Below the pieces are notes generated by a model. The model was not told the DNA's origin. It saw nothing but the letters and a program-made list of their open reading frames with translations, and ran no database searches. A program made the translations under genes and the position numbers. A stretch of DNA of 37,354 bases from a virus, in the IMG/VR virus record IMGVR_UViG_3300043775_004752, positions 1-37,354 of that record; one strand, 5' to 3'. Shown in pieces: positions 10,315 through 35,897 of the stretch; the first letter of the stretch is position 1, and each line of letters begins with the position of its first letter.

Positions 10315-10343
10315 TTAATATAAATATTGTTAATGGCAATCAA
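10315..10343 (-). promoter_or_regulatory. Sigma70-like promoter for the glycan operon
   Basis: On the - strand: TTGATT (10343-10338), 17 nt, TATTAA (10320-10315), then 19 nt to ATG 10295. The -35 overlaps the first codons of the divergent fibre-like gene, and the spacer overlaps that gene's late promoter at 10319-10326. Early and late transcription would therefore compete at one site. The -35 matches others in the window; the -10 is moderate. Confidence 0.42.
10319..10326 (+). promoter_or_regulatory. T4-type late promoter (TATAAATA), 6 nt from ATG
   Basis: An exact TATAAATA octamer, the box read by T4 gp55-RNA polymerase, ends 6 nt before ATG 10333. In T4 the box covers about -13 to -6, so transcription would start at or next to the A of the start codon. 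No Shine-Dalgarno fits in between. Confidence 0.75.
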
Positions 10344-11028
10344 TCCGTCAAATAGTAATGCAATTAATGTTGTTAACTTACCGTCAGCTCAGCTCGCCGT
10401 AGCTGGAGATTATTTAATTTTGCAGACAAATAACGGTACGCAAAAAATAAATTTTAATGATTTTAACGTTGTGCGTACAGATATACTAGGCAACGCAACT
10501 GTAATCGGTAATTTAACAGGTAATGATGTAGTTGTTGACAATGTCGTAACAGCGAACATTACGGCGAGCAACTTCTTTACGACAAACGGTCAGGGCATTA
10601 ATGGTTCAAACGGTTTTTATGATAGGTTTACAATTCAAGACGGGCTTATCCTAAGTGCTGACCTAAACACTAAAAATAATCCCGTATATACAGAAATTAC
10701 AAACACTGTCCTGCCTGCACTTACGTCAAATCTGTCTAACATTTTTTTAAAGATATATGATTATAGCAATACAGCTGTAATTCCTGCAGGGTCAAATACC
10801 ACATCGACAATTTCAATAAATCAATTTTTTGCAAACTACCCTATTACTGTTACACAAATAACACGTGATAAATTTACCGTTGTGCCGCAAGTCGGTACAC
10901 TAGCTCAGGTTCCTACAATAACCAACATATTACAAATTGGTCAGAATTTACAGTTTCAAATTGCTGTTGGTTCAAATCTCACAAATAATACAACGTTTAA
11001 TTGGCGATTGCTTGTAACTTACAATTAA
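10333..11028 (+). CDS. Fibre-like virion structural protein
   Basis: 231 aa. It is rich in Asn, Thr, Val, Ile and Ser with short repeated beta units (for example NATVIGNLTGNDVVVDNVVT), which is typical of phage fibres and fibritin-like proteins. A long N-terminal stretch of this kind runs to about residue 100, then a compact C-terminal part ends in FNWRLLVTYN. The exact T4 late promoter supports a virion role. ATG 10333 (MAINPSN) is preferred to the in-frame TTG at 10327, because the latter lies inside the promoter-to-start interval. I cannot assign a T4 counterpart. It overlaps the convergent small gene at 11025 by 4 nt. Its location beside the glycan cluster makes it a possible glycan acceptor, which is speculation. 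Confidence 0.65.
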   Translation: MAINPSNSNAINVVNLPSAQLAVAGDYLILQTNNGTQKINFNDFNVVRTDILGNATVIGNLTGNDVVVDNVVTANITASNFFTTNGQGINGSNGFYDRFTIQDGLILSADLNTKNNPVYTEITNTVLPALTSNLSNIFLKIYDYSNTAVIPAGSNTTSTISINQFFANYPITVTQITRDKFTVVPQVGTLAQVPTITNILQIGQNLQFQIAVGSNLTNNTTFNWRLLVTYN

Positions 11029-11240
11029 TCGCGTACGTGAAATAGTAAAGCTTTAGTAATTCTACCTAAAGCTTTATTTGGATTTACACCTTCATCAACT
11101 AGACGTTTATACTCGAGCTTAAACGAATTAATAAATTCTTCTGATAATTGAAAGTTTCTTGGATAAAAACTACGCTTTACCGTTTTAATAGGCGAAAAAT
11201 TTTCTTTTATTTGTAATATGGTTCTATCAAAAGAGTTCAC
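11025..11240 (-). CDS. Small hypothetical protein, late promoter
   Basis: 71 aa, beginning MNSFDRTILQIKENFSPIK from a GTG at 11240. It is basic, probably helical (FINSFKLEYKRLVDEGVNP, KALGRITKALLF), with no recognisable domain. Support for a real gene comes from the late-like box AATAAATA placed exactly 6 nt before the GTG, inside the end of the upstream kinase gene, the same spacing as at 10333, 12058 and 18190. It ends against the fibre-like gene, with stops overlapping. The function is unknown. Confidence 0.6.
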   Translation of the reverse strand: MNSFDRTILQIKENFSPIKTVKRSFYPRNFQLSEEFINSFKLEYKRLVDEGVNPNKALGRITKALLFHVRD

Positions 11241-11245
11241 AAATA

Positions 11246-11983
11246 TTATTTATTGCCGCGTATAATATCGTTGAGTATTTTTTTCTCCTCTTTCTCTTCT
11301 TTTTCAACCTTCTTTTGAGCTTTTAAGATTGATTCCATCATATCTAAATTTTCAGTATTAAAAATGCCGTTATCTTCAACTAAACTACCTGTATCACTAA
11401 TATATAGATTGACCATCTGTATTCGTTCTTCTGGAGAGCCGAAGATTTCAATAATAGGCGGTCTATCTTCATCGGGGAAAAACGGTGATTTGCCTGTATG
11501 ATAGAAGCCGTGCGAAATAACTTTAAAAATATTATCTATTTCTGCGATGTACGCTGTATCTATCTCTCTACCTTCTCTCTCTACAATAGGTACCGGCGCA
11601 ACGTTAGTTATGGGAAGAAAAAATATGACGTCAAGATAATGCATACTCTCCTTAACGAGCGGTATACATTCACGAATAAAATCATCATCAATATCTGATG
11701 CATTTTTTGCGTTACTCCAGAGTGAATATACAATATTATCCAAACAGCATCTGTCGAAAATAATATTATCATTTTTTGATGTACTCTTAATATCTGACAG
11801 TAATAATTTTAAAATTTCAAGTTGCGATTCTTTTGCTACTTCTTTATTAAGCTTAATATTATTTTCTTTAATGTATGTCCTGTATGACTCTTTTGACCGT
11901 TTATACATTGACCATTTTGCAAGAATATCATTGACAAGTGTTGTCTTACCTTGACAGGCAGATCCGGAAATAGCAATTCTCAT
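11246..11983 (-). CDS. NadR-like P-loop kinase (AAA_28 family)
   Basis: 245 aa. It starts MRIAISGSACQGKTTL, so the Walker A loop (GSACQGKTT) is at residues 7-15. NIIFDRCCLDNIVYSLWSNA is the Walker B-like/LID region, and YLDVIFFLPITNVAPVP plus EREGREIDTAYIAEIDNIF match the nucleotide kinase-like family that includes the NadR kinase domain. The substrate (nicotinamide riboside, a deoxynucleotide or another small molecule) cannot be told. The C-terminus is a Lys/Glu-rich coiled tail. An upstream ATG at 12139 would add 52 residues of unlike sequence and run over the divergent gene, so I use ATG 11983. It lies 5 bp before the small gene that follows. Confidence 0.75.
   Translation of the reverse strand: MRIAISGSACQGKTTLVNDILAKWSMYKRSKESYRTYIKENNIKLNKEVAKESQLEILKLLLSDIKSTSKNDNIIFDRCCLDNIVYSLWSNAKNASDIDDDFIRECIPLVKESMHYLDVIFFLPITNVAPVPIVEREGREIDTAYIAEIDNIFKVISHGFYHTGKSPFFPDEDRPPIIEIFGSPEERIQMVNLYISDTGSLVEDNGIFNTENLDMMESILKAQKKVEKEEKEEKKILNDIIRGNK
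11247..11254 (-). promoter_or_regulatory. Late-like promoter (AATAAATA) 6 nt before GTG
   Basis: On the - strand AATAAATA is followed by 6 nt and GTG 11240. It differs from TATAAATA in one base and overlaps the last codons of the kinase gene. The identical spacing to the exact boxes is the main support. Confidence 0.5.
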
Positions 11984-12043
11984 AAAATATAACTTATAAA
12001 CATTTTCTAACATTTCAATAATGTTTCTTTTTATTAAGACATG

Positions 12044-12051
12044 TATAAATA
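12044..12051 (+). promoter_or_regulatory. T4-type late promoter (TATAAATA), 6 nt from ATG
   Basis: An exact octamer ends 6 nt before ATG 12058, with only A residues between. The geometry equals that at 10319. It puts a glycosyltransferase under late control. Confidence 0.75.
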
Positions 12052-12057
12052 AAAAAA

Positions 12058-13305
12058 ATGTTATTTTTTGCCAAACAAATTCCTCACTCACCACATGCGT
12101 TAAAATATCTGGTACGTAATGATTCAGCACACATGACATTTTTTGATTTATGTAAAAGTGTTAATCCTGACACAAAGCAGGCGCGATTATCAAAAATACC
12201 GTTTAATGAGAAATTTGTCTATGAAATACATTTACGTTACTCAATTGATCATCTGGCTGATGGTATTTGTTCATTTACTGAAATACTACCAGAAATAATA
12301 ATAGATAAATTACAAAATAATAAATGCTTATTATTAATATCACACAGCCATGAAGGTTATTCGTGCAGCGGTAATACTGTTAAAAGGATTAAAGAGCTCT
12401 TAGAGAAAGATAGTATTGAGATGCATAATGTAATACTTTTCTGTAATAGTACGACGCCGTCACCACGTATCGTGGCAGATAGTAACGGCGTATATTGCGG
12501 GTTTAATTATTTTGAGTCAACAGCAAGAAATAAATTTGCATTAGAAAATATCGCAGAATATAAATCACTGCGACTTGATAATATACTTGCATGCAATATT
12601 AAAAATAAATTTCTCTGTTTAAATCGCGTACCGCGTGAGCACAGAGTAATGTTCTTAATGCTGCTAAATAGAGAAAATCTGTTGAGTAATTTCCTGTGGA
12701 GCCTACCCGACATTGACGTTGTAAACGCTAGTGATATAACAAAATTTGACGTTTCGGAAATATGGGGTCAGACTAACACGGCCTGTGTGTTTAAGAATAC
12801 GACACCGGTTGAGCGTGTGGAATTTAAGCGACTTCTCCCAAGTGTCGTTGATGTAAGGGCATTTGAATATAATCAGTGGAATACCTTAAATAAAAAATTT
12901 ATAACTTCTACAGGGATATATGTAGTTACAGAGACGCTTTTTGGTGGTGCTAATACACCATGTTTTTTTACTGAAAAAATATTTAAACCGATCTACTATA
13001 AGATGCCCTTTATAGTAGTAGGTACACCAGGGTACCTTAAGCATATGCGCACGTGCGGCTATAAGACTTTTAGTAATTTATGGTCTGAAGATTATGATGA
13101 TGTTATTGATGAGTATGGTAGACTTTCGCGAATAATTAAACTAATTGAATATATAAGCCGTCTAGATACAGAAGAATTTCACAAGCTGCTAGCCGAAGCT
13201 CTGTATATTACTGCATGCAATTATTCACGTCTTATGAGCCGTAGTAGTGACAAGTATATCGCAGATTTTATTGCAGAAAAATTATCTGCCCGCATTACAC
13301 TTTAA
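12058..13305 (+). CDS. Late-expressed glycosyltransferase-like protein (exostosin/GT-B type)
   Basis: 415 aa. The C-terminal third has CFFTEKIFKPIYYKMPFIVVG, then PGYLKHMRTCGYKTF and LWSEDYD. This TEKIFKPI-PFI-G-L-GYKTF pattern marks a phage/bacterial glycosyltransferase family and resembles the donor-binding end of GT10/exostosin-like enzymes. Around residue 185, NKFLCLNRVPREHRVMFL fits the N-terminal sugar-binding side. The 408-aa gene at 18886 is a diverged paralogue. It stands alone between genes of the opposite strand and has an exact late promoter, so it probably acts during virion assembly or late host modification. The ends of this gene and queE overlap by 11 bp. Confidence 0.65.
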   Translation: MLFFAKQIPHSPHALKYLVRNDSAHMTFFDLCKSVNPDTKQARLSKIPFNEKFVYEIHLRYSIDHLADGICSFTEILPEIIIDKLQNNKCLLLISHSHEGYSCSGNTVKRIKELLEKDSIEMHNVILFCNSTTPSPRIVADSNGVYCGFNYFESTARNKFALENIAEYKSLRLDNILACNIKNKFLCLNRVPREHRVMFLMLLNRENLLSNFLWSLPDIDVVNASDITKFDVSEIWGQTNTACVFKNTTPVERVEFKRLLPSVVDVRAFEYNQWNTLNKKFITSTGIYVVTETLFGGANTPCFFTEKIFKPIYYKMPFIVVGTPGYLKHMRTCGYKTFSNLWSEDYDDVIDEYGRLSRIIKLIEYISRLDTEEFHKLLAEALYITACNYSRLMSRSSDKYIADFIAEKLSARITL

Positions 13306-14053
13306 GCGCTTTATCCCAAATTACTAGCTGTAAGCGTGGGCTAAACTTTACACCCATATACTTAGCATATTCTGCTACCGCAGCTGCTTTCTGTGTATGT
13401 TCATCACGCGAGCCGCAACACGGCATGAACCATATACGATGTGTAGGAATGTTTATACCTTCGTCATCCCTTACGTACTTGTTCCAAATCTCCTCAATAT
13501 CACTATCTACGGTTATAACAAACTTAAACCCCGAATTATTCGCTACATGCCATTTGAGAACTTCAGGTTTATATGTCTTCTCCTCTGGGTCACCGTTTGT
13601 TGATAGCTTAGGTGATGTAGTGAATGTAGCTCTATAATATGCTACCCATTCATTTGCAGGTAAAATTGTAGCGTTCGTCTCAAAATCTATTCTCGGTAAA
13701 AACCCATAGCGAGTAATAAAGCACTCTATAAATTTTAAAAGCTGTTTCTGTTGTACAAGGGGCTCACCGCCTGTAATCTTTAAAATACTACCACTCTGAA
13801 GATGATTAATATGATATCCCTTCTCAAGCATCGTAAAAATCTCCTGAAATGTCATCTTGTTTTTTACCGACCACGATACATACGAATCACAACCATGCGG
13901 AGAGTCTGCAGATTCAAATTTACTGCACGTTAAATTACACATTGATAGTCGCATAAAAACTGAAGGTGTACCGATATGTTCACCCTCTCCTTCAATTGTA
14001 TAAAATATCTTATCATCACTTAAAAATAGCGTTTCTTCATCTATGTTTATCAT
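13295..14053 (-). CDS. queE: 7-carboxy-7-deazaguanine synthase, radical SAM
   Basis: 252 aa. QueE converts 6-carboxytetrahydropterin to 7-carboxy-7-deazaguanine, third step to preQ0. Seen here: FYTIEGEGEHIGTPSVFMRL at residues 17-36, the family's substrate-binding opening; the [4Fe-4S] cysteines C39, C43 and C55; and ILKITGGEPLVQQ, the GGEP SAM-binding motif. The cluster motif is Cx3Cx11C rather than Cx3Cx2C, with an 11-residue insert between the second and third Cys; altered spacing is known in some QueE proteins. RIDFETNAT and FTTSPKL follow as usual. The start is ATG 14053, 9 nt after a clear sigma70-like -10. It faces phoH and overlaps the end of the late glycosyltransferase by 11 bp. Confidence 0.9.
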   Translation of the reverse strand: MINIDEETLFLSDDKIFYTIEGEGEHIGTPSVFMRLSMCNLTCSKFESADSPHGCDSYVSWSVKNKMTFQEIFTMLEKGYHINHLQSGSILKITGGEPLVQQKQLLKFIECFITRYGFLPRIDFETNATILPANEWVAYYRATFTTSPKLSTNGDPEEKTYKPEVLKWHVANNSGFKFVITVDSDIEEIWNKYVRDDEGINIPTHRIWFMPCCGSRDEHTQKAAAVAEYAKYMGVKFSPRLQLVIWDKALKV

Positions 14054-14062
14054 ACATGGTAG

Positions 14063-14903: not shown

Positions 14904-15297
14904 GCTCTTCTATAGCCTTAAGTACACTATTATTTGCAGTAGCAATATCTGCTGCAGTTTGATCCTTAAGCGCTATTGTTGTAGGCTGGAGTACTGCTGT
15001 GCCGTCATTATCATTTAAGCCTATTTGCTGTGCAATAGCGTTTAATGTTGCGGACAAGTTATCTTGTATTTTACAAAAATGTGGATCACGATCAAATTTA
15101 GGTAATATGCTTCCTGTTGATATAAGACCTGTTGTATCTATATTAGGCTTACCTTTTATTTGTTTTTCGTAGATGTTAGATAGGTCATCTTGACCTATAT
15201 CAAATGGCAACTGAATTTGAGCTTGTTTCTGATTATTATTAATAATATAGTCAGATATATCACCACCGTAAAATTGATGTCTGTGCTCTGGAGACAT
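14878..15297 (-). CDS. Hypothetical protein downstream of queD
   Basis: 139 aa, no recognised domain. It begins MSPEHRHQFYGGDISDYI, has a Gln/Asn-rich middle, and ends in a probable helix (TAADIATANNSVLKAIEELK). It is coupled to queD: the queD stop and this ATG share one base (TAATG). Its 3' end overlaps phoH by 26 bp in the opposite direction. The low-complexity composition and helical tail are more like a virion or scaffold protein than an enzyme, but there is no (L/I)-x-E peptide at the N-terminus. The function is unknown. Confidence 0.6.
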   Translation of the reverse strand: MSPEHRHQFYGGDISDYIINNNQKQAQIQLPFDIGQDDLSNIYEKQIKGKPNIDTTGLISTGSILPKFDRDPHFCKIQDNLSATLNAIAQQIGLNDNDGTAVLQPTTIALKDQTAADIATANNSVLKAIEELKSAGAVL

Positions 15298-15896
15298 TAA
15301 ACACCCCAGCTAGTTCCAGCGAACGGATTTGACCACCCTGAACTAACCTGATTACCAATGCGTGCAGGTATCGGCTCATTTCCTGGTTCTTGTTGTACCG
15401 GTTCTTGTTGTACCGGTTCTTGTTTCGATGTTAATTCTTCTTTACAAGGAGTTATATTACCTACATACAGTGCAGAATTTTTTTCATGCTCCCATACCTC
15501 TACCTTACTTGTCCAGCATCGATTGTTTGTTATTCTACGAACATATTCGTCAGCAGCTTTAAAGCACCACTCCGCTGTCTTCTCAATACCTACACCTTCT
15601 GGCATTATGCGTAGATCACAACCACCGTGTTTATGTAAATCAGTAAAGTACGGTAATAAAGGATCATCAGCAGCTACACATAATGTATGATCAAATTGCT
15701 TCTCGAGAATTATCTTTAATTCTTTAAGATTACCGAAATCGACTACCCAGTTCTTTTCATCAAGCTCACTGCAGCTAAACCAAAATTTAGCAACCAATCT
15801 ATAACCATGAATAAACTTACAGTGACTATGATCTGCTCTCCATTGACGAAATGCGCAACTACCTAAATCAATTATTTTTGTACTCTCGAAACTCAT
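15297..15896 (-). CDS. queD: QueD-type 6-carboxytetrahydropterin synthase with C-terminal tail
   Basis: 199 aa. QueD turns dihydroneopterin triphosphate into 6-carboxytetrahydropterin, the second step to preQ0. CAFRQWRADHSHCKFIHGY (residues 14-32) aligns with the E. coli QueD active site: C26 fits the catalytic Cys and H30 one zinc ligand, but the other two zinc histidines are replaced (R/Q near 17-18 and Y32). WVVDFGNLKELK, FDHTLC and GIEKTAEWCFKA follow as in the family. Residues after about 150 form an extra tail with EPVQQ repeats, ending SSGWSNPFAGTSWGV. The start at 15896 (MSFES) is set by the promoter 7 nt upstream; an ATG at 15917 would lie within that promoter. Confidence 0.85.
   Translation of the reverse strand: MSFESTKIIDLGSCAFRQWRADHSHCKFIHGYRLVAKFWFSCSELDEKNWVVDFGNLKELKIILEKQFDHTLCVAADDPLLPYFTDLHKHGGCDLRIMPEGVGIEKTAEWCFKAADEYVRRITNNRCWTSKVEVWEHEKNSALYVGNITPCKEELTSKQEPVQQEPVQQEPGNEPIPARIGNQVSSGWSNPFAGTSWGV
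15385..15424 (-). repeat. 15-bp tandem repeat in queD 3' end
   Basis: The unit GGTTCTTGTTGTACC occurs at 15385-15399 and 15400-15414, with a partial third copy to 15424. On the coding strand it gives EPVQQ repeats in the QueD tail. The perfect identity points to recent slippage. Confidence 0.85.
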
Positions 15897-15903
15897 AAAA
15901 ATT

Positions 15904-15931
15904 ATTATATACAACAAGCTGCTGCATTCAA
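15904..15931 (-). promoter_or_regulatory. Sigma70-like promoter for queD
   Basis: On the - strand: TTGAAT (15931-15926), 16 nt, a perfect TATAAT (15909-15904), 7 nt, ATG 15896. One of the best promoters in the window. The mRNA should have no leader or almost none. Confidence 0.68.
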
Positions 15932-16019: not shown

Positions 16020-16583
16020 TTATTTGAGTGTTGCAACCCAGTGTCTCTTTTTACTATTATATGTAATTACAGCCTTTGCATTTGCGACATAACGCGACTT
16101 ACCTTTTGGTAATTTTTCTTTATAAAAGAATAGTTCCGGTACACGCTGATTGACAAGTGCAACAATACTGCCATATTGCGGGTGTTTGAATAATTTTACG
16201 AAAACATAAGCGCCTGCTATTTTTATTATTTTTCCCGCAAATGCCTTGCCGTTTATTACTACATTAAAATAATCCCGGTCATTAAATTTCGGTACTGCAG
16301 CAGTTTTGCCTGAGGACTTAAGTGATGCTGGCTCCTCAGGTTTTGACCATGCGTTGCTTGGATCCGGGCTTATAATATTAGCAGCACCTTTAAGAGCTCT
16401 AGAGACAGCTTCCGGACCTGCAGGTTTATAAGGATCCTTTAAGACACCAGCAACATTGCCTGCACCGTGTAATGTTTTTGCTATACCGCGACGCCAGCTT
16501 TTAGGTGAAACAAGGCTTTTTGCATACGAGCTTAAAGGTGCTTCATTGAGTAATACCTTTGTGAGATCATTAAATTTACTCAT
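16020..16583 (-). CDS. Putative internal head protein
   Basis: 187 aa. The N-terminus MSKFNDLTKVLLNE ends in L-N-E and is followed by an abrupt change to Ala/Pro/Gly-rich sequence (to about residue 95); this fits a T4-like capsid-targeting peptide cut after Glu by the gp21 protease. From about residue 100 there is a compact basic beta-rich domain (YFNVVINGKAFAGKIIKI, AYVFVKLFKH) and a Lys/Arg-rich C-terminus, which could bind DNA. No named domain is recognised. The ATG overlaps the stop of the upstream gene (ATGA), and both would come from the late promoter at 17008-17015. Confidence 0.6.
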   Translation of the reverse strand: MSKFNDLTKVLLNEAPLSSYAKSLVSPKSWRRGIAKTLHGAGNVAGVLKDPYKPAGPEAVSRALKGAANIISPDPSNAWSKPEEPASLKSSGKTAAVPKFNDRDYFNVVINGKAFAGKIIKIAGAYVFVKLFKHPQYGSIVALVNQRVPELFFYKEKLPKGKSRYVANAKAVITYNSKKRHWVATLK

Positions 16584-17002
16584 AATACTATAAACTCCTT
16601 ATACAATTCCATTATATCACCTTCACCGAGACCTGATTGTTGCAAGAATATCTCAACTTCATCTAGACTAGTACAATTAAGTATTTGATCAAACAACGGA
16701 TCACTTTCTTGTAAATTTAAATGTTGTAAAATAAACCGTTTGAGTTCATCAAGTATATTTGAATCACATCCATCATCTACCGGCTCAACGCTCGCTGCAG
16801 GAATTGTCTCGACGCCGACATTAGGCTGTATCATTAATACTTTGACTACGCCATCATTTTCTTCTAATACATAACCTTCATATGACGGACATTCACTCAA
16901 ATCACTTGCATACGGTATTGTTGATGGGTCTACTTTTACACGTACTCGCTGTAATGCAGTAAGCTTATTAAAGCATGTCTCAAGCAATAAATCGAATCTC
17001 AC
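16580..17002 (-). CDS. Putative late virion protein
   Basis: 140 aa from GTG 17002 (151 aa from ATG 17035). I prefer the GTG because an exact late box TATAAATA ends 5 nt before it, the geometry seen at other late genes, and because the protein then starts MRFDLLLE, a short peptide ending in L-L-E like a capsid-targeting sequence. The rest is acidic: a beta-rich middle (YEGYVLEENDGVVKVLMI) and a helical end (DELKRFILQHLNLQ, LQQSGLGEGDIMELYKEF). No family is recognised. The downstream 187-aa gene is coupled by a 4-nt overlap. Confidence 0.58.
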   Translation of the reverse strand: MRFDLLLETCFNKLTALQRVRVKVDPSTIPYASDLSECPSYEGYVLEENDGVVKVLMIQPNVGVETIPAASVEPVDDGCDSNILDELKRFILQHLNLQESDPLFDQILNCTSLDEVEIFLQQSGLGEGDIMELYKEFIVL

Positions 17003-17007
17003 ACTAT

Positions 17008-17015
17008 TATTTATA
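17008..17015 (-). promoter_or_regulatory. T4-type late promoter (TATAAATA) 5 nt before GTG
   Basis: An exact octamer on the - strand, followed by 5 nt and GTG 17002. It is immediately next to the divergent folE promoter (-35 at 17017). If ATG 17035 were the start, the box would be inside the gene. Confidence 0.55.
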
Positions 17016-17016
17016 G

Positions 17017-17045
17017 TTGATAACGTAATATTCATATAATATAAT
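17017..17045 (+). promoter_or_regulatory. Sigma70-like promoter for folE
   Basis: TTGATA (17017-17022), a 17-nt spacer, a perfect TATAAT (17040-17045), then 11 nt to ATG 17057. The predicted leader is only about 4-5 nt. Confidence 0.65.
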
Positions 17046-17056
17046 CACATCATACT

Positions 17057-17710
17057 ATGGAAGAATACATAAAGGAAGTGCGTATACAATATGCTAATGG
17101 CAATCACCCTCACACAGATGAAGAAAAGCGAATTATAATTGAGCGAGCAGCGAAAGCATACGAAACATATCTCGATGCACTCGGCTTCGACTGGCGCAAT
17201 GATCCGAATAGTACCAATACACCTCTACGGGTTGCAAAGGCGTTTGTTAATGACTTAGCATCAGGCTGCTACAATGAGCCACCTAAGGTTACATCATTTC
17301 CAAGCAACGGCTATGATGGTATAGTATTCCAGGGAGGCATTCCGGTTAAGAGCATGTGTAGTCATCATCACCTCGCATTTACCGGTGTAGCACACGTTGC
17401 ATACATACCATCACTTGATGGTCGAGTCATTGGGCTTTCGAAATTAAATAGAATTGTTGAATTTTATGCACGTCGTCCACAGATTCAAGAAGGGCTAACA
17501 ATTCAGATTCATGATGCAATTCATGAGGTGTGCGAAAAAAATCGCGGTGTAGCGGTAGTAGTGAGTGCAACACATACATGTGCATGCAATCGCGGAGTAA
17601 AGCATGATGGTTGCGAAATGAAGACAAGTAAGTTGAGCGGTGATTTTATGTCTGATGCTGCAACGCGTGCAGAATTTTATACGTTCGTCGCTAATATGAA
17701 GCGTCTATAA
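17057..17710 (+). CDS. folE: GTP cyclohydrolase I
   Basis: 217 aa. FolE converts GTP to dihydroneopterin triphosphate, first step for both folate and preQ0. The catalytic zinc ligands are visible: C101 and H104 in MCSHHHLAF, and C175 in THTCACNRG. IGLSKLNRIVEFYARRPQIQEGL is the central family motif, and the length is close to the usual 200-225. TPLRVAKAFVNDLASGCY near residue 60 is the N-terminal helix motif. In this phage it most likely feeds QueD, QueE and QueC. It is a single-gene + strand transcript between late - strand genes. Its end overlaps the convergent retropepsin-like gene by 6 bp. Confidence 0.94.
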   Translation: MEEYIKEVRIQYANGNHPHTDEEKRIIIERAAKAYETYLDALGFDWRNDPNSTNTPLRVAKAFVNDLASGCYNEPPKVTSFPSNGYDGIVFQGGIPVKSMCSHHHLAFTGVAHVAYIPSLDGRVIGLSKLNRIVEFYARRPQIQEGLTIQIHDAIHEVCEKNRGVAVVVSATHTCACNRGVKHDGCEMKTSKLSGDFMSDAATRAEFYTFVANMKRL

Positions 17711-18190
17711 GCTTACGTCTATAAGAGCATTGATATCACGTATAAACGGTTCACCTACTAGAACGGGCTCATCATTTTCTGAGCGATCTGCAAGACTAAA
17801 TGGTATGTTGCGGTAGATTTTATCTTTTAGTTTGATATTAAGTGCTACAACAGGTCTTTCCTCCTTTACACCGCTGCCTATATGTATCACCGTAGTATCA
17901 ACAAGCGGCGCAGTTACGCGCTTATCATTCACAGTTATAAATGACACTTCATTACCGGCAATATTAGTGTTTATACCGTGTAAAACATTATAGGCTTCAT
18001 TGCCGCTATCTATTTTTGCGCTTACGCTTCCAATGCCCTCTATAAAAATATTCTCTATAACTGAAAGAACCATCTTACCTTCGGCTTCTTTTACGCAGTT
18101 ATTTACAAGCTTGTTACCTTTCTTTTTAATGCCGCGCTTTACATAGCCTCTCCAACAATTCTTTTCATAAAAATATTCTCTAAATGTCAT
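17705..18190 (-). CDS. Retropepsin-like aspartic protease-family protein with virion-type N-terminus
   Basis: 161 aa. Residues 40-161 match the retropepsin-like 'ATP-dependent zinc protease'/RimB group: AKIDSGNEAYNVLHG (active-site D61-S-G63), the TAPLVD region (here VTAPLVDTTVI), RPVVALNIKL, FSLADRSENDEPVLVGEPFI. Before it comes a Cys-bounded basic motif (C12 to C32, pattern CWxGYxxxGxKKKGxxxxxNCV) that I know as a recurring segment in marine T4-like phage proteins. The N-terminus MTFREYFYE resembles a capsid-targeting peptide. An exact late promoter sits 6 nt upstream. It may be a head-associated protease; a standard active-site DTG reads DSG here, which retropepsins accept. Confidence 0.7.
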   Translation of the reverse strand: MTFREYFYEKNCWRGYVKRGIKKKGNKLVNNCVKEAEGKMVLSVIENIFIEGIGSVSAKIDSGNEAYNVLHGINTNIAGNEVSFITVNDKRVTAPLVDTTVIHIGSGVKEERPVVALNIKLKDKIYRNIPFSLADRSENDEPVLVGEPFIRDINALIDVSL

Positions 18191-18196: not shown

Positions 18197-18204
18197 TATT
18201 TATA
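18197..18204 (-). promoter_or_regulatory. T4-type late promoter (TATAAATA), 6 nt from ATG
   Basis: An exact octamer on the - strand, followed by 6 nt and ATG 18190. Same geometry as 10319 and 12044. Confidence 0.75.
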
Positions 18205-20112: not shown

Positions 20113-20713
20113 ATTTAATAAATTACTAGAATTTGAAAAACAAATTGCACATTTTTTTGGTGCTCCTTATGCATTAGCCGTTGATTGCTGTACACATGGT
20201 TTAGAGATGTGTATAAAGTTATGCAGTGAACAGCAAATAATATGCCCGAAGCAAACATACATTTCAATTCCATTCATGCTCGAAAAAATATCATCAAAAT
20301 ATATATTTGATGATATCTTATGGCAAGAGTATTATTATCTTACACCGAGTATTATTGACGCAGCAACATTATGGAGACGCAATAGTTACATACCTAATAC
20401 ATGTATGGGAATTTCTTTTCATATTAAAAAGCATATTAATATAGGTCGCGGCGGGATGATATTGTTAGATAATAAAGTGTGGTATGAACGTCTTAAAAAA
20501 ATGAGATATGATGGTAGATCAATATATGATGATGTCATGTATATTGATGACAATATAGCAGATATAGGCTATCATTATTATATGACACCAGAGACTGCTG
20601 CAGAAGGAATAAAAATTTTTCAGCAAAAAAAAGATATACCACCAAAGATTTTATCTTATAAAGATTACTCAGATATTACGCAATTTAGCTACTTTAAAAA
20701 TAAATATACATAG
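20105..20713 (+). CDS. Compact DegT/DnrJ/EryC1-like PLP protein
   Basis: 202 aa, about half the usual 370-400. It follows the DegT order: FEKQIAHFFGAPYALAVDCC (N-terminal helix and strand), PKQTYISIPF (the TYIAT-like loop), IIDAATLW with D85 in the place of the Asp that holds the PLP pyridine nitrogen, and FHIKKHINIGRGGMILL with Lys108/109 in place of the PLP-binding lysine. About 40-50 residues between the first two motifs are missing, and the C-terminal domain is reduced to a short tail (GYHYYMTPETAAEGI). It may be a degenerate or scaffold protein or a minimal enzyme. It is coupled to the glycosyltransferase upstream by an 8-nt overlap. Confidence 0.7.
   Translation: MSEFNKLLEFEKQIAHFFGAPYALAVDCCTHGLEMCIKLCSEQQIICPKQTYISIPFMLEKISSKYIFDDILWQEYYYLTPSIIDAATLWRRNSYIPNTCMGISFHIKKHINIGRGGMILLDNKVWYERLKKMRYDGRSIYDDVMYIDDNIADIGYHYYMTPETAAEGIKIFQQKKDIPPKILSYKDYSDITQFSYFKNKYT
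20699..20706 (+). promoter_or_regulatory. Late-like promoter (AATAAATA) 9 nt before ATG
   Basis: AATAAATA, one base from consensus, lies inside the last codons of the DegT-like gene, 9 nt before ATG 20716. The same box and spacing occur before the gene at 35880. Confidence 0.35.
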
Positions 20714-20715: not shown

Positions 20716-21261
20716 ATGTTTGCAAAAGATATCGAACTACTTAACGAAGTTTACGTACAAAAAATTACAGAGATGAATCTCGGTCCACGAGGTGATAATG
20801 GCAGTATCCAGCCATCTACGACAAAAATGCAGCAAATTGACATGACGTCTGAGCCTTGTGGGAAATGTGGTACAGAGGAAGACTGCGAAGGTATGGAAAA
20901 TCATGAAGATACGAATGCAGGTATGGTTAGACAGAGTTTATTTCGGTTAGTCAAACTATCAGCTATGCTGCATGATTTAGTTGCAAAACACGGTAGTGCT
21001 GAACCGTGGGTGTTAAGTAAAGTAACAGAGGCATTAAATCACGTTGAATCTGTATATGGCTATATGGATTATGAGAACTACCGCCAGCAAGTTGATACAG
21101 ATATTGAAAATATAGAAGAAGAAACAGAACAAGATCTTTATAGCTCTATTTCGAGTGGCGGTGAATCAATAGTTAATAAACTACGTACTGTACTGTCAAA
21201 AGAATCACGGGAGCAGGTTGAGAGCTTTATATATGAAGCAATAACAATACTTGAAAAATAA
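20716..21261 (+). CDS. Putative virion/internal head protein
   Basis: 181 aa. The first 11 residues, MFAKDIELLNE, end in L-N-E as in a capsid-targeting peptide. A CGKCGTEEDCEG cluster near residue 48 could bind a metal. The C-terminal half is helical and acidic, and contains AEPWVLSKVTEALNHVESVYG, a segment type seen in several T4-like phage proteins (W-V-x-S-K-x-T-x-A). No enzyme motif is seen. Unlike most other proteins in this class, it is on the + strand. It stops 3 bp from the convergent gene at 21265. Confidence 0.62.
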   Translation: MFAKDIELLNEVYVQKITEMNLGPRGDNGSIQPSTTKMQQIDMTSEPCGKCGTEEDCEGMENHEDTNAGMVRQSLFRLVKLSAMLHDLVAKHGSAEPWVLSKVTEALNHVESVYGYMDYENYRQQVDTDIENIEEETEQDLYSSISSGGESIVNKLRTVLSKESREQVESFIYEAITILEK

Positions 21262-21264: not shown

Positions 21265-21714
21265 TCACTGTACGTACGGGCTTTTCTTTTTCATATAGTC
21301 AACGATAACATTATACCTTTGCATAAAATTATTTTCATTAACTGAATTAATGAATTTTTGGTAATTAGAATTATTAAGTCTCTCGATGTTATCTGACTTC
21401 ACTTCATTCTCATTCATTACAAGCTTAAGTTTGTTTTGAATATCAAATGCATTCTCTTTACTAATCGCGTTACCTGTAAATATGGCATCAATTTCCCCTG
21501 CCGGTATATCCATAACAAGCGCTTTCGCTAGCATCTTTACAACACTTACATAACCTTCAGGAGCAACGGCCTGTGGCTCATTATCAGCAGCAGGCTCAGG
21601 TTGTGCTGCTGGATCAGGTGTTGTAGCATCTTGCGGTGCTGTAGCAGGTGCAGGTTGATCTTGCTCTGATATTACATACGACATAATGTCATTATACTTT
21701 TTTAAAAACGCCAT
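21265..21714 (-). CDS. Putative internal head protein with Pro/Ala linker
   Basis: 149 aa. The N-terminus MAFLKKYNDIMSYVISE ends in I-S-E, then comes a Pro/Ala/Gln/Asp low-complexity linker to about residue 50. This is the abrupt transition expected after a cleaved targeting peptide. The C-terminal half (VSVVKMLAKALVMDIPAGEI, then Asn-rich helices to the end) has no recognised domain. It has a late-like box CATAAATA 5 nt before its ATG. It is the last gene of a four-gene - strand group from 22965. Confidence 0.6.
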   Translation of the reverse strand: MAFLKKYNDIMSYVISEQDQPAPATAPQDATTPDPAAQPEPAADNEPQAVAPEGYVSVVKMLAKALVMDIPAGEIDAIFTGNAISKENAFDIQNKLKLVMNENEVKSDNIERLNNSNYQKFINSVNENNFMQRYNVIVDYMKKKSPYVQ

Positions 21715-21719: not shown

Positions 21720-21727
21720 TATTTATG
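21720..21727 (-). promoter_or_regulatory. Late-like promoter (CATAAATA) 5 nt before ATG
   Basis: On the - strand CATAAATA, one base from consensus, is followed by 5 nt and ATG 21714. It falls in the 16-bp gap between two - strand genes. Confidence 0.5.
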
Positions 21728-23394: not shown

Positions 23395-24842
23395 TGATAC
23401 ACGTTGGCTATGATAAATCAAAAAAGCTCGGTATTATATCGGGAGATTTATTTCAAGAAATGCGTGAGTACTTTTCAGTAAAAAATGATGCGGCTCGTTT
23501 TGCAAAACGTTTCAATAGATTTATACCCTCAAGATTGTATGCAATAACCCCGAATGGCCGCTTTGAGCCTGGAATGTACAATGAAATACGTCAATTTATC
23601 TTGAGTAAAGATTATGTAGGTGATATAGTTGTTGAAAAAGAATTTACTGATTTTCTTGTACCTGCAATATCAACATGGTATACATCACCGAAGTATACAC
23701 ATGAGCCGCTGCCCTTAATGATACCGTTACGTGATTATCAGCGCGAAATAGTTAAGCGCAGCCTGCAGTACGGTCGCGGTACCATTTTGCTAGCAACCGC
23801 AGGTGGCAAGACACTTACTGCAGCATCTATTCTTACTAATATATTCTTTATATACGGTAACAAGTTTAAGTGCTTGTTTATTGTACCCGATAGAGGTCTT
23901 GTGGAGCAAACAAGCTCTGATTTCGAGCAATACGGTGTACCGTTCTCTGTATCAAAATGGACCGGTGATGATATTTTAAATCGCGATACAAATATTATTG
24001 TTGCAAATATCGGTATAATGCAGAGCAAAAATACTGATTTATCGTGGCTTAGCGAGGTTGATGTACTCTTTATTGACGAGTGCCATCGGTTGAGGAAAGG
24101 TAATGAAATAAATAGTATCTTTAAACAATTAAAGACGCCGCATAGATTTGGTCTTACAGGTACAATGCCGGAGGGATTGCTTGATCAGTGGAATATTACA
24201 GGAAAGATAGGGCCGGTAATTTTTAAAAAAGAGAGTATAGATCTACGCAATGAGAGTTATATCTCAGGTGTCGAGATTCAAATACTTAAGCTTAAACATC
24301 AAGCACATAAATTAAACTTAACATACAGGGAAGAGATAGAGACATTAATAACAAGCGATTATAGAAACACAACAATAAGCACCATATCTTCGCGTGTTCA
24401 AAAAAATACTCTTGTACTTGTCGATTACATTGAGCACGGAAAGCGGTTGTATGACTGCATAACAAAAGCATCTCCAGAGAAGCAAGTATTTTTTATACAT
24501 GGTGATATAAGTGTTGAAGAGAGAGAAAAAGTAAGACAGCTAATGGAGATTGCTGATAATGTAGTCGTTGTCGCAATTTCAAAAATATTTTCAACTGGTA
24601 TTAACATTAAAAATTTACATTATATTATTTTCGCATGTGGCGGTAAAGCAAAAGTAAAAATAGTGCAATCAATTGGCCGCGGCCTCCGGCTACACAAAGA
24701 CAAGGACAAGCTAGTAATATTTGATATTGCTGATTCATATCATTACAGTCTGAGTCATCTCGAAAAACGAATTTTATTATATGAAAAAGAGCACATTAAA
24801 TTCTCAATCAAAGAAATTGAAGAGAAAAAACCAGGAAACTGA
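23394..24842 (+). CDS. uvsW: UvsW-type superfamily 2 helicase
   Basis: 482 aa (T4 UvsW about 500). In T4 it unwinds R-loops and remodels branched DNA, switching replication from origins to recombination. Motifs in order: LRDYQREIV (Q-like), LLATAGGKTLT (Walker A, K139), LFIDECHRL (DECH box), GLTGTMP (motif III), HGDISVEEREKV, ISKIFSTGINI, and VQSIGRGLRLH (motif VI). Residues 1-100 are the small N-terminal DNA-binding domain typical of UvsW. The last 62 nt overlap the gp55 gene in another frame. Confidence 0.93.
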   Translation: MIHVGYDKSKKLGIISGDLFQEMREYFSVKNDAARFAKRFNRFIPSRLYAITPNGRFEPGMYNEIRQFILSKDYVGDIVVEKEFTDFLVPAISTWYTSPKYTHEPLPLMIPLRDYQREIVKRSLQYGRGTILLATAGGKTLTAASILTNIFFIYGNKFKCLFIVPDRGLVEQTSSDFEQYGVPFSVSKWTGDDILNRDTNIIVANIGIMQSKNTDLSWLSEVDVLFIDECHRLRKGNEINSIFKQLKTPHRFGLTGTMPEGLLDQWNITGKIGPVIFKKESIDLRNESYISGVEIQILKLKHQAHKLNLTYREEIETLITSDYRNTTISTISSRVQKNTLVLVDYIEHGKRLYDCITKASPEKQVFFIHGDISVEEREKVRQLMEIADNVVVVAISKIFSTGINIKNLHYIIFACGGKAKVKIVQSIGRGLRLHKDKDKLVIFDIADSYHYSLSHLEKRILLYEKEHIKFSIKEIEEKKPGN

Positions 24843-25392
24843 ACCACCAAAATTAACAAAACTAAAAGCGACGATTGCATCAAGTACTCGTCGCAAAGAG
24901 GTTGTATTGCGGGGTGTTGATGCAGAGAAAGTATCTGTACAGGACAAGGTCAAAAAAATTAAACCACGTGACAAGGAGCATTATGTCAATGGAAAAGAAT
25001 TTGAGGAAGAAATACGTAAATATTATACCACCGGTGAAATCTCTATAAAGCTCGGCGAAAGTATAAACAAGATAGCTAGTGGCCTTTCATACGCTACAAA
25101 TTTTATTAACTATTCATATAAGGAAGACATGGTAGGTGACGCTATTGTAAAGATGTTTTCTGCACTTAAAAATAAAAGTTTTAGACTCGATTCAGGCTTT
25201 AGCCCGTTTTCATACTTTACTACTATTGCATTCCATGCATTCATTAATAGAATTAAAAAAGAAAAAAAACATCATGAAGCTCTCAATGACTACAGAGATA
25301 AAGTTTATACTGAATTAATGATAGATACTAATGATATTAACGGTACACATGTATATGTGGACCCTACCTACAGTAATGATGACGATTACTGA
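24781..25392 (+). CDS. 55: Late-transcription sigma factor, gp55-like
   Basis: 203 aa (T4 gp55 185). gp55 directs host RNA polymerase to TATAAATA late promoters, several of which are in this window. The conserved core includes NFINYSYKEDMVGDAI (sigma region 2-like), FSPFSYFTTIAFHAFINRIKKEKK, which parallels the T4 PFAYFTQI-FIRRIQKEKK segment. The first 60 residues are basic and low in complexity, and overlap uvsW; an internal TTG at 24907 is an alternative start. The acidic C-terminus (NDDDY) fits the clamp-binding tail region. It overlaps gp47 by 17 nt. Confidence 0.88.
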   Translation: MKKSTLNSQSKKLKRKNQETEPPKLTKLKATIASSTRRKEVVLRGVDAEKVSVQDKVKKIKPRDKEHYVNGKEFEEEIRKYYTTGEISIKLGESINKIASGLSYATNFINYSYKEDMVGDAIVKMFSALKNKSFRLDSGFSPFSYFTTIAFHAFINRIKKEKKHHEALNDYRDKVYTELMIDTNDINGTHVYVDPTYSNDDDY

Positions 25393-32526: not shown

Positions 32527-32557
32527 AAAAGCGAAGATTAATTTCTTCGCTTTTTTT
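32527..32557 (+). terminator. Rho-independent terminator
   Basis: A perfect 11-bp stem: AAAAGCGAAGA (32527-32537) and TCTTCGCTTTT (32544-32554), with a 6-nt TTAATT loop and a T-run to 32557. It ends the gp43 transcript just before the uvsX promoter. The A-tract on the left would give a weaker terminator on the - strand as well, but no - strand gene needs it. Confidence 0.9.
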
Positions 32558-32559
32558 AT

Positions 32560-32587
32560 TTGATAAGCAGCATTTTTCATATATACT
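32560..32587 (+). promoter_or_regulatory. Sigma70-like promoter for uvsX
   Basis: TTGATA (32560-32565), 16 nt, TATACT (32582-32587), 7 nt, ATG 32595. It directly follows the terminator, so uvsX-queC forms its own transcription unit. The mRNA would be leaderless or nearly so. Confidence 0.62.
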
Positions 32588-32594
32588 CGTTTTT

Positions 32595-33740
32595 ATGGAA
32601 AAAGAAATCGATAATATATTTAAAAAGCTAGATTCTCTCAACAGTGAGGCAACTTTTCTTAACGAAAATGCTCTGTCAAATGTTGACACCTGGTACGATA
32701 CGGGGTGTTATGCACTCAATGCGATACTTGGTGGTAGTTGTAGAGAGGGTGGTGTACCGAAAGGTAGAATTGTAGGCTTTTCCGGTGAATCGATGACAGG
32801 CAAGACATACATTGTGAATAAGATTCTTGCTAACGCTCAAAAGCAAGGTGTATATCCGGTCATTTTTGATACAGAATTTGCAATCGACGAAGCTTCAACG
32901 AAGGGTGTAGGACTCGACCCATCAAAGACGAAATACGTACCTGTGTATACTGTCGATCAGTGTAGAAATCAACTATCTGCATTTCTTGATAGTGTAATTG
33001 AAAATAAGCAAGAAGGTAAGTTTATTATCAGTATTGATAGTCTCGGTAACCTCTCATCACAAAAAGAAATTGATGATATCGCTAAGGATAAATCTGCAGC
33101 TGATATGGGATTGAGAGCTAAATCACTGAAGAGCTTGCTACGTACATTAACATACAAAGCAGGTCGTGCTGGTGTAACAATACTGTTTACAAACCATACT
33201 TACGCTGATCCAGGTGCCATGTATCCGTCTCTCGTGAAGACACAGGCTGGTGGGTCTGGACCGGTATATATGGCAAGTATTCTCGTACAGCTTGCAAAAC
33301 GCAATGAGAAGGAAGGCGAGGGTGATGCTGGTAATATTAACACTACAAAGCTTGCAGAGGCGAACAAATATTCAGGTACCACGTTGCGTGCACTAACAGT
33401 GAAGAACCGCTTCGTCCCACCGTTTCTCGAAGCAGAAATGTATCTCTCTTTCAAGTCAGGTCTTAACAAGTATAGTGGATTATTACAGATGGCAGCAGCA
33501 CGAGGCATTGTTGAGCAAACAGGCTCAACGTATGTCATAGGTCTTGATAGCGGTAAGTATAAAAAAGGTGAAAAACTGGGATATGCAAAGAATTTCGTTA
33601 AAGACATCTCGTTTTTTGAAGACTTCCTGATACCAGAACTCGATAAAAGACTGGCTGAAGATTACAAATATAATAGCAACGATAGTGATGGCAGCGAAAC
33701 ACAACCAAAAATTGAAGATGAATTTAATGACAAAGAATAA
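32595..33740 (+). CDS. uvsX: RecA-like recombinase UvsX
   Basis: 381 aa (T4 UvsX about 390). It catalyses strand exchange and works with UvsY, gp46/47 and gp43. Walker A is GESMTGKT (residues 64-71), and GVYPVIFDTEFAID follows with the catalytic acid. KFIISIDSLGNLSS is Walker B, and GVTILFTNHTYADPGAMYPSL is the L1-type DNA loop region, followed by GGSGPVYMASILVQL. The acidic C-terminal tail (NDSDGSETQPKIEDEF) matches UvsX/RecA tails. Its end overlaps queC by 14 nt. Confidence 0.95.
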   Translation: MEKEIDNIFKKLDSLNSEATFLNENALSNVDTWYDTGCYALNAILGGSCREGGVPKGRIVGFSGESMTGKTYIVNKILANAQKQGVYPVIFDTEFAIDEASTKGVGLDPSKTKYVPVYTVDQCRNQLSAFLDSVIENKQEGKFIISIDSLGNLSSQKEIDDIAKDKSAADMGLRAKSLKSLLRTLTYKAGRAGVTILFTNHTYADPGAMYPSLVKTQAGGSGPVYMASILVQLAKRNEKEGEGDAGNINTTKLAEANKYSGTTLRALTVKNRFVPPFLEAEMYLSFKSGLNKYSGLLQMAAARGIVEQTGSTYVIGLDSGKYKKGEKLGYAKNFVKDISFFEDFLIPELDKRLAEDYKYNSNDSDGSETQPKIEDEFNDKE

Positions 33741-34443
33741 GGTAGTTTTATCATATTCTGGTGGGATGGACTCAACTGTTCTACTGTATAAAGCGTTACG
33801 TGATTTTGATGTTGTACACACGGTAACCTTTAATTACGGTCAGAGACACCAGAAAGAAATAGAGATAGTAAAGCAACAAGTACTACAGTATTCAGACAAA
33901 AAATTAACGAATATTGTACTTGATTTACCGTTTTTTCAGCAATTTAAAGGATCATCATTACTCGATAGTACCATTGATGTAGCCAAGGCAAGAGAGGCTA
34001 TGGGTGATCCACAGACAGTAAATTACGTACCATTTAGAAACACAATTTTTCTGTCAATTCTTGCTGGATATGCAGAAAGTGTAGGTGCTAAGACTGTCTG
34101 GTACGGTGCTGCACAAGCAGATAGCGTAGCTGGCTTTTATGATGGTAGCACCGAATATCTGGAGCAGATCAACAATATTACACGACTCAATAGACGTAAC
34201 GTCATCACCATTGAAGCACCGCTTATCACACTGTCAAAAAAAGAAATCATTGAGCTCGGGATATCATATGGTGTTGATTATAATAACACATGGACATGTT
34301 ATGAGGGCAAAGAAATGGCATGTGGTGAATGTACAGCATGTGCATTAAGACTTAAGGGGTTTGTTGATGTAGGCATGCCTGACCCTGTAAAATATTCAAA
34401 AAATATACCTTGGGATAAACTTATTAAGACTGTTGCCAAATAG
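33727..34443 (+). CDS. queC: 7-cyano-7-deazaguanine (preQ0) synthase
   Basis: 238 aa. QueC uses ATP and ammonia to make preQ0 from 7-carboxy-7-deazaguanine. The PP-loop VVLSYSGGMDSTVLLYKA is at residues 6-23 (SGGMDS). TFNYGQRHQKEIEIVK and VPFRNTIFLSILAGYAES are family motifs, and the zinc cysteines C191, C199, C202 and C205 are in TWTCYEG and ACGECTACALR. ATG 33727 is used; ATGs at 33685, 33688 and 33718 would extend further into uvsX with unlike sequence. It is coupled to uvsX by overlap and so expressed early. Its end overlaps a convergent head-protein gene by 20 bp. Confidence 0.94.
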   Translation: MTKNKVVLSYSGGMDSTVLLYKALRDFDVVHTVTFNYGQRHQKEIEIVKQQVLQYSDKKLTNIVLDLPFFQQFKGSSLLDSTIDVAKAREAMGDPQTVNYVPFRNTIFLSILAGYAESVGAKTVWYGAAQADSVAGFYDGSTEYLEQINNITRLNRRNVITIEAPLITLSKKEIIELGISYGVDYNNTWTCYEGKEMACGECTACALRLKGFVDVGMPDPVKYSKNIPWDKLIKTVAK

Positions 34444-34924
34444 CGGTGATCTGTTGCTGTAACGGTCTAGGAGCGTATTTACCCGCTTTCTTTGTAGTAG
34501 GGTTATATTTTGCCCAGCCAGTACCAGACCATATGTACGGTTCATTTTTGAACATTACAGTATCATCATTCTCTGGTGTACCTTTACCTGCAAGATCGCC
34601 TGACTGTAGCAGTTCACCGAGAGACGCTTGCACTCTAGTTATGGTTGACTGCCTCACATCACCGTCGGGTATAAATCCAAGTTTTTGAAGATCTTTAATT
34701 AAATTGCTAGAGGCAGATTTAATTATATAATTTAACTTACCTGAGGCATATGCATCACCTGCGCTAGCAGTAGCTTTACCAATAAGCGATCTACCTACGT
34801 TCTTTGCATACGTACCAACCGCAGTACGTGCACCTGCTACACGGGCTCCAGCACGCGATAACATACCCTCATTAACAATTTTTGATTCATACAATAATGC
34901 AATGTGATTGTTATCGCTTGTCAT
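34424..34924 (-). CDS. Putative internal head protein
   Basis: 166 aa from ATG 34924 (174 from ATG 34948). The later start is chosen because it falls after the upstream stop and gives MTSDNNHIALLYESKIVNE, a 19-residue peptide ending in V-N-E, matching the 20-residue one of the gene just upstream. The body is Ala/Gly-rich and basic (AGARVAGARTAVGTYAKNVG), then a short winged-type or helical region and a C-terminal segment with PYIWSGTGWAKYNPTTKKAG, a small beta motif. No enzyme motifs are seen. It is in an operon with 34930-35880. Confidence 0.6.
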   Translation of the reverse strand: MTSDNNHIALLYESKIVNEGMLSRAGARVAGARTAVGTYAKNVGRSLIGKATASAGDAYASGKLNYIIKSASSNLIKDLQKLGFIPDGDVRQSTITRVQASLGELLQSGDLAGKGTPENDDTVMFKNEPYIWSGTGWAKYNPTTKKAGKYAPRPLQQQITAIWQQS

Positions 34925-34929
34925 TTTTA

Positions 34930-35880
34930 TTAATTTTGCTGATTCCAATATGATCTACCGGTTTGCGGCATAAAGTGCTTTGATGCATACTCCTCTGGAT
35001 CGAGATTTACATCAGTAGTGTCACCTGCATCTTCTAAATCGTCACCTGCCTCACCAGGTATAACTCTAGATCCATCGGTATCAAAAATACCTCTGTTTAT
35101 AAGACCTTTAATTAAGCCTGTAGCACGCACTTCAGCACTCTTGCTTGAAATCTCTGGATCACCCTGAACATAGAGTTGACCAATTTCTTTCGCGAGCTCT
35201 GACATCTCCATACCACCCTCAATAGAATAAACGAGTTTCTTTGCAGCTTCTATATACTTGTTACTTGCAGGTTCTGCTGTCGGTGCATTAGATGATGGTG
35301 TACTTACAGCGGGCTCACTGCCAGATGATTGTGGCTCAGCTGATGGCGCAGGTTTACTTACAGCTTGCTGCACAGCTGTAGTAACAGCATTCTGTACTTC
35401 ACCTTCTGAAGGCGGCTCATCACCTTGGGATTCATCCTCTAGTGCTTGGACTACATCTTGTATAAAACCTCTAAAGATACGCGCAGTGTAACCGTGTATA
35501 GCACTTGACGATAAGCCTTTTACTTTTTCAAGCTCAGGGTATGATGACTTAAGCTGTTGAATTATTTCTGGTAATTTTTGCTGTATAGCGTTTTGAAGTT
35601 TGCCTAACTGCTCTCTTTTATCCCCTGAAGCTGCAAATCGGCCACCTGGAAATAATTCATCATAAATCGGTTTTGAAAGAATATCAGCAACTTCTTCAGC
35701 AGATTTATTCAATGCGCTTTTTAATACCTTAAAAATATAGGTATCATTAGTTTTTTCACGCTCTCCTACACCTTTTGATACTGCAGCACCAAAGGTACCG
35801 TATTCAGCACCGAGGTCAAGTTCATTCAATATAATGTGATTTTTATATTGTTCAAAAATTAAATTACAATCATTATTCAT
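34930..35880 (-). CDS. Putative internal head/scaffold protein
   Basis: 316 aa. The N-terminus ends YKNHIILNE (L-N-E at residues 18-20) and changes to LDLGAEYGTFG, as in a cleaved targeting peptide. Residues about 40-150 are helical (KSALNKSAEEVADILSK, AIQQKLPEIIQQLK). Residues 150-205 are a Ser/Pro/Ala/Glu linker, then a helical acidic part, and the end is HFMPQTGRSYWNQQN. No known domain is seen. A late-like AATAAATA box lies 9 nt before the ATG. It is divergent from the glutamine amidotransferase gene. Confidence 0.62.
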   Translation of the reverse strand: MNNDCNLIFEQYKNHIILNELDLGAEYGTFGAAVSKGVGEREKTNDTYIFKVLKSALNKSAEEVADILSKPIYDELFPGGRFAASGDKREQLGKLQNAIQQKLPEIIQQLKSSYPELEKVKGLSSSAIHGYTARIFRGFIQDVVQALEDESQGDEPPSEGEVQNAVTTAVQQAVSKPAPSAEPQSSGSEPAVSTPSSNAPTAEPASNKYIEAAKKLVYSIEGGMEMSELAKEIGQLYVQGDPEISSKSAEVRATGLIKGLINRGIFDTDGSRVIPGEAGDDLEDAGDTTDVNLDPEEYASKHFMPQTGRSYWNQQN

Positions 35881-35889
35881 GGCTTGAAA

Positions 35890-35897
35890 TATTTATT
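35890..35897 (-). promoter_or_regulatory. Late-like promoter (AATAAATA) 9 nt before ATG
   Basis: On the - strand AATAAATA is followed by 9 nt and ATG 35880. One base from consensus; the same box and spacing as at 20699. Confidence 0.4.

Follow-up and report, generated by a model that had tools for sequence, protein, structure and literature searches.

Start-adjacent late promoters in a freshwater T4-like phage and the leaderless messages that they predict

Does a T4-like phage set its late promoters so close to its genes that the late messages would carry no leader? The question is raised by IMG/VR virus record IMGVR_UViG_3300043775_004752, here called the window (the whole stretch of DNA that was analysed, with 37,354 bases and 35% G+C, or 65% A+T), in which copies of the T4 late-promoter box TATAAATA and near variants of it stand a few nucleotides (nt) ahead of start codons. 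Our answer, to which we give a probability of roughly 0.87, is that the window comes from a freshwater T4-like phage whose promoters are set for transcription to begin on, or at most about 4 bases ahead of, the start codon, and that the first genes of its transcripts would thus be leaderless. For comparison, 80 related loci were collected by way of the window's gp55 (which has 423 relatives in IMG/VR), eight long related contigs (74–199 kb) were examined in full, and about 1.1 Mb of related contigs entered the count of gaps between box and start. The phages T4, S-PM2, P-HM1, HTVC008M, RM378, and BUCT-ZZ01 were passed through the identical procedure, which is based on open reading frames (ORFs).

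Late boxes beside start codons in the window and its relatives

In total number, TATAAATA is not raised in the window, with 5 exact copies as against 9.0 ± 3.0 in shuffled sequences. What is odd is the placement, as four of the five stand 5–6 nt ahead of the first codon of an ORF with at least 60 amino acids (aa), compared with a background of 1.3% (binomial p 1.5e-7). Moreover, among all 256 8-mers of the window that consist of A and T only, TATAAATA has the most copies at this gap, and for the shorter word ATAAATA, 6 of 16 sites are found at a gap of 5–7 nt (p 1.9e-9).

The relatives show the same placement more sharply. Across the related contigs, the gap from ATAAATA to the start was 4 nt in no case, 5 nt in 92, 6 nt in 51, and 7 nt in 24, followed by a low tail, although these pooled counts include orthologues and hence are not all independent. 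The values for single contigs, which do not depend on pooling, were significant for every family contig by itself: in the eight long contigs, 28–46% of the ATAAATA sites lie 5–7 nt from a called start, and the per-contig enrichment at this gap over other A/T 7-mers is 27–64 fold (p 1e-9 to 1e-43). At a gap of 5 nt, ATAAATA ranks first among all 128 A/T 7-mers. The late-box consensus of the family, A[A/T]TAAATA, includes the TATAAATA of T4, and its first base is free as in S-PM2. No ATAAATA site at the start-adjacent spacing was found in T4, S-PM2, RM378, or BUCT-ZZ01.

These results bear on several points of an original prediction made from the sequence of the window. Each of the eight boxes that it listed is present with its distance at the coordinates claimed (Table 1). 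It had regarded the repeated spacing as unlikely to arise by chance, and the window statistic and the contig-by-contig enrichment in relatives both agree; it had also staked itself on a peak at 5–6 nt in the gap distribution, and here the related contigs gave a sharp, one-sided one. Most of the exact boxes that it listed have a gap of 6 nt, but the mode of the family is 5 nt and not 6.

Even orthologues with only about 30% protein identity preserve the box and its spacing, while their flanks diverge. Conserved in them are the starts GTG 17002 and GTG 11240 and those at ATG 21714, 20716, 10333, and 35880, but not ATG 17035; this conservation of box and gap fixes the start codons, so that GTG 17002 and GTG 11240 are real. 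Some sites vary in their detail. The box of the gene at 11240 recurs in 7 of 8 orthologues, 5 of these at 5 nt, while the gene at 20716, with its gap of 9 nt in the window, has the box in 22 of 28 orthologues, of which 17 show a gap of exactly 5 nt. Ahead of the 35880 gene, several relatives have AATAAATAATTCAAG 7–10 nt from the start. Support for the 18190 site comes from the closest relative only (the G001 box stands 5 nt ahead of an in-frame GTG), and the 12058 box is missing in the sole detected relative (G001, 32% identity). As a separate observation, the fifth exact copy of TATAAATA, at 31927–31934 (+), lies within the DNA polymerase gene, far from called starts.

Sigma70-type promoters of the same layout and the missing Shine-Dalgarno signal

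With the late-box genes removed beforehand, we ranked 6-mers at fixed distances from starts. This unbiased ranking revealed TATAAT ending 6 nt ahead of the start (42 observed, 2.8 expected) and TTGATT ending 28 nt ahead (28 observed, 1.4 expected). In 89 of the 115 sites with a start-adjacent −10, TTG is found 16 or 17 bp upstream of it. Judged by their anatomy, these TTGA-N16/17-TATAAT elements are sigma70 promoters with a −10 that ends 6 nt ahead of the start. At the late-box sites (n = 212), TTG has no preferred spacing, i.e., there is no −35 element. Nothing like the Bacteroidetes-type promoter (TAnnTTTG) appeared among the top words of the 6-mer ranking.

The two promoters divide the genes largely by function. 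While the late box precedes homologues of the tail sheath (gp18), tail tube (gp19), sheath stabiliser (gp15), neck, and prohead protease (gp21), the −10 precedes DNA polymerase, UvsX, the gp41 helicase, other helicases, primase, folE, QueD, and QueE. A start-adjacent −10 was found for DNA polymerase in 38 of 40 orthologues and for folE in 22 of 29, and for uvsX (at 5–7 nt from the start) in 23 of 33; for the operon-internal gp46, gp47, uvsW, and gp55, this was so in only 0–4 of 48–60, and these four genes mostly lack either promoter. The original prediction had described a feature of late genes: the effect is there in late genes, but it is not confined to them, as the sigma70 promoters share the layout. 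At 17002–17057 and in the orthologous loci, we also observed that the divergent promoters overlap: a conserved TTCAACATAAATA in relatives can be read in one direction as the late box and on the opposite strand as the TTGAA −35 that belongs to the folE sigma70 promoter.

The geometry of both promoters leads to the same base. The −10 hexamer of sigma70 promoters spans −12 to −7, and when it is followed by a gap of 6 nt, +1 would fall on the start codon. In T4, the late box runs from −13 to −6, its first base being named as position −13 (PMC2988020), and where a box that ends at −6 is followed by a gap of 5 nt, +1 would be the first base of the start codon. This match of two promoter classes, with modes of 5 and 6 nt, is the strongest argument that the transcription start is held at the start codon.

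As for the Shine-Dalgarno (SD) signal, SD-like words were found ahead of 2–10% of family genes, compared with 3–7% in the control, in first, operon-internal, and other genes alike; in T4, they reach 43–57% across gene classes. Hence, the original prediction was right in seeing no SD sites, which are near background in every gene class of the family, and in describing T4 late genes as leadered with SD sites, as the T4 boxes peak at 22–29 nt and SD-like words precede 53% of its genes. The leader would thus be absent, and its function is not provided elsewhere.

Taken together, late promoters placed for leaderless late messages, as originally proposed, are supported, with the leaderless state predicted from promoter geometry. 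The gp55-like sigma factor claimed for the same window is indeed encoded there (Table 1), and gp55 was found in all nine family contigs searched; the clamp loader proteins gp44 and gp62 were also detected in the family. In the mechanism that we propose, gp55 would recognise the late box and guide the host RNA polymerase to it at late genes, whereas early and replication genes would be read from the sigma70 promoter. With either promoter, the gene that comes first in a transcript would have a leaderless message, whose 5'-terminal AUG or GUG would be bound directly by 70S ribosomes with no need of an SD site, a route that has been described for leaderless messages (PMC9031893). Later operon genes would be translated by coupling. 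In these, neither promoter nor SD site is found for the most part, and many overlap or start within 15 nt of the preceding gene.

Table 1. Promoters and genes of the window to which the text refers
Feature	Position	Strand	Details
Late box TATAAATA	10319..10326	+	6 nt ahead of ATG 10333; box and 6-nt gap in 8/8 orthologues
Gene downstream of 10319 box	10333..11028	+	231 aa; no PHROG match
Gene from GTG 11240	11025..11240	-	71 aa
Late box AATAAATA	11247..11254	-	6 nt ahead of GTG 11240; overlaps end of upstream gene
Late box TATAAATA	12044..12051	+	6 nt ahead of ATG 12058
Gene downstream of 12044 box	12058..13305	+	415 aa; no PHROG match
Gene from GTG 17002 (not ATG 17035)	16580..17002	-	140 aa; start set by orthologues
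Late box TATAAATA	17008..17015	-	5 nt ahead of GTG 17002; box at 5–6 nt in 24/27 orthologues
Gene downstream of 18197 box	17705..18190	-	161 aa; short N-terminal match to PHROG families of unknown function
Late box TATAAATA	18197..18204	-	6 nt ahead of ATG 18190
Late box AATAAATA	20699..20706	+	9 nt ahead of ATG 20716
Gene downstream of 20699 box	20716..21261	+	181 aa
Gene downstream of 21720 box	21265..21714	-	149 aa
Late box CATAAATA	21720..21727	-	5 nt ahead of ATG 21714; box at 5–6 nt in 36/41 orthologues
gp55-like late sigma factor	24781..25392	+	phrog_234, E 1.1e-25
Sigma70-type promoter of uvsX, TTGATA-16 bp-TATACT	32560..32587	+	ends 7 nt ahead of ATG 32595
uvsX, recombination gene with start-adjacent sigma70 promoter	32595..33740	+	
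Gene downstream of 35890 box	34930..35880	-	316 aa
Late box AATAAATA	35890..35897	-	9 nt ahead of ATG 35880

Other readings of the start-adjacent elements

The alternative that survives best, though we consider it unlikely, is that the promoters are real but minor, with much of the expression coming from leadered read-through of promoters further upstream. This would suit the dense packing of genes, the many first genes without a recognisable motif, and g23 (major capsid), which must be strongly expressed and yet has no abutting promoter. Many of the box genes are divergent, however, with no called same-strand gene directly upstream from which to be read, and read-through messages would lack SD sites as well.

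Several of these facts also weigh against our main reading, as does the partial dependence of the pooled gap counts. In none of the eight contigs does g23 have an abutting box, and about half of the divergent first genes have neither motif when strict motif forms are used. The split between gene classes is imperfect, in that nrdB has a late box and one tail fibre gene a −10. Moreover, phmmer searches with single cyanophage sequences did not detect gp45 and gp33, the gp55 partners of T4 (a gp45 search with PF02916 was uninformative, as the profile matched nowhere at all). Regarding the g23 upstream region, we noticed AGGTCGACA about 25–40 nt ahead of the gene in most of the G001–G016 contigs (e.g., L372, L373, and L376) and, in most contigs, a purine patch about 13 nt ahead of the start.

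Considerably less probable is that the A/T-rich element is no promoter at all, but a translation signal that replaces the SD site. The element does sit at the position of ribosome contact, and SD sites are absent; furthermore, a marine Far-T4-like genome has been linked to Bacteroidetes (PMC7198788), a group in which many members rely on neither SD-led nor leaderless genes (PMC3160421). On the other hand, the element equals the T4 late-promoter consensus in a genome that encodes gp55, and it is found at 35% of divergent first genes as opposed to 9% of operon-internal genes. Non-late genes, for their part, carry a two-part sigma70 promoter at a matching distance, and its 16–17 bp spacer is needless for ribosomes. 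Owing to this operon context and sigma70 counterpart, a ribosome-binding signal was rejected.

The start codons could also have been misassigned, with the true starts lying further downstream behind ordinary leaders, given that gene calls were ORF-based and that the T4 box is 22–29 nt from the start, but this is very improbable: orthologues of 30–45% identity align from the codon right after the box with a nearly constant gap, and in the isolate HTVC008M, annotated starts (tape measure, tail tube cap, and baseplate) lie 5 nt after the box. Finally, chance placement in an A/T-rich genome can be dismissed as next to impossible, for although the window has 65% A+T and a TATAAATA total under expectation, it is placement and not number that is odd, the p value being 1.5e-7 for the window and between 1e-22 and 1e-43 for each relative.

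Related systems, possible hosts, and significance

Start-adjacent late promoters resemble those of T4 in the 8-base box, the lack of a −35, the gp55 homologue, and the tail and head genes as targets; they differ in the gap of 5–7 nt without SD sites, where in T4 the box is 22–29 nt away and SD sites are common, and in that gp33 and gp45 were not detected in the window family by single-sequence phmmer. The marine T4-like cyanophages S-PM2 and P-HM1 have a late motif, NATAAATA, with a free first base (PMC2984593) and a gp55 about 38% identical, but their boxes are mostly 19–25 and 34–38 nt upstream, and SD sites are weak but present.

A closer likeness is found in HTVC008M, a cultured phage of SAR11, with 8 boxes exactly 5 nt ahead of starts, mostly of annotated tail and baseplate genes. 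In 80 HTVC008M-related contigs, 44 sites lie at a gap of 5 and none at 6, though a few orthologous genes supply most of them. Pelagimyophages differ from the window family in that SD sites are common elsewhere in their genomes (33–44%) and no clear sigma70 peak occurs at a gap of 6. On the polymerase tree, HTVC008M stands with the cyanophages and apart from the window family, and the layout therefore occurs in two separate branches. No TAAATA site was found 5 nt ahead of an ATG in the alphaproteobacterial T4-like phages Cr30, phiM12, phiM9, and Atu_ph04.

Among cellular genes, the leaderless ones of Deinococcus-Thermus and Actinobacteria are comparable, as a −10 about 10 bp ahead of the start marks leaderlessness (PMC3160421); those promoters are of the cellular sigma70 kind, whereas in the window family sigma70 has the layout in common with a phage late sigma, and the SD signal is absent throughout. 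The Far-T4 phages (Roux et al. 2015, PMC4360716) are likewise freshwater T4-like contigs, most with phoH, a gene also encoded in the window, and gp23 (PF07068) occurs in 8 of 8 family contigs. The window family is probably the Far-T4 group. RM378, an isolate placed with Far-T4, lacks such spacing or peak. The word "promoter" is absent from the Far-T4 paper (PMC4360716), and our search of the open-access literature, which did not extend to subscription papers, turned up no account of leaderless late messages for T4-like phages. T4-type late promoters are known; what is new is their being fixed at a leaderless distance and paired with sigma70 promoters of the same layout.

Besides gp55, the T4-like genes of the window are gp43, uvsX, and a UvsY-like gene, with gp46, gp47, and uvsW tentatively named from their sequence and position; gene names without a listed match are readings of translations. 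No tRNA was found in the window. Genes like queE, queD, folE, and queC at 13295–14053, 15297–15917, 17057–17710, and 33685–34443 form a near-complete 7-deazaguanine pathway, which suggests modified phage DNA or tRNA changes. A long operon at 561–10295 (-) contains glycosyltransferase-, methyltransferase-, and sugar-epimerase-like genes that mostly overlap or nearly do so, and 211–564 (-) weakly matches the clamp-loader subunit gp62 of cyanophage P-HM1 (E 0.003).

With regard to the host, when 84,980 genomes of bacteria and archaea were scanned with a gp55 profile, no relative came up. The window's epimerase has a mixed match list with Patescibacteria at the top. Many Patescibacteria show a clear enrichment of TATAAT 6 nt ahead of ATG, whereas most other genomes tested show little or none; we take Patescibacteria as a lead only and not as a host assignment. 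In the Patescibacteria genomes G017, G018, G020, and G039–G096, TATAATNNNNNNATG is often 2–7 times above the reversed-pattern control, which suggests that sigma70 promoters next to the start codon are widespread in this phylum.

T4 late transcription is the textbook case of a leadered, SD-driven system. Yet the same class of promoter is fixed, throughout a common branch of freshwater phages and to some extent in those of SAR11, at a distance that would remove the leader. For pelagimyophages, whose published late-promoter prediction was unsuccessful (PMC7029224), the start-adjacent placement may explain why such searches failed, and for gene callers, the box spacing is a strong signal of the start site. 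We lean slightly towards a broader view, in which the lineage has lost SD initiation as a whole: with early and late transcription both starting on the start codon, the entire infection would run on leaderless initiation, possibly since the host itself translates mainly leaderless messages. The layout suggests a host whose translation does not depend on SD sites, and is thus a clue to the hosts of these phages.

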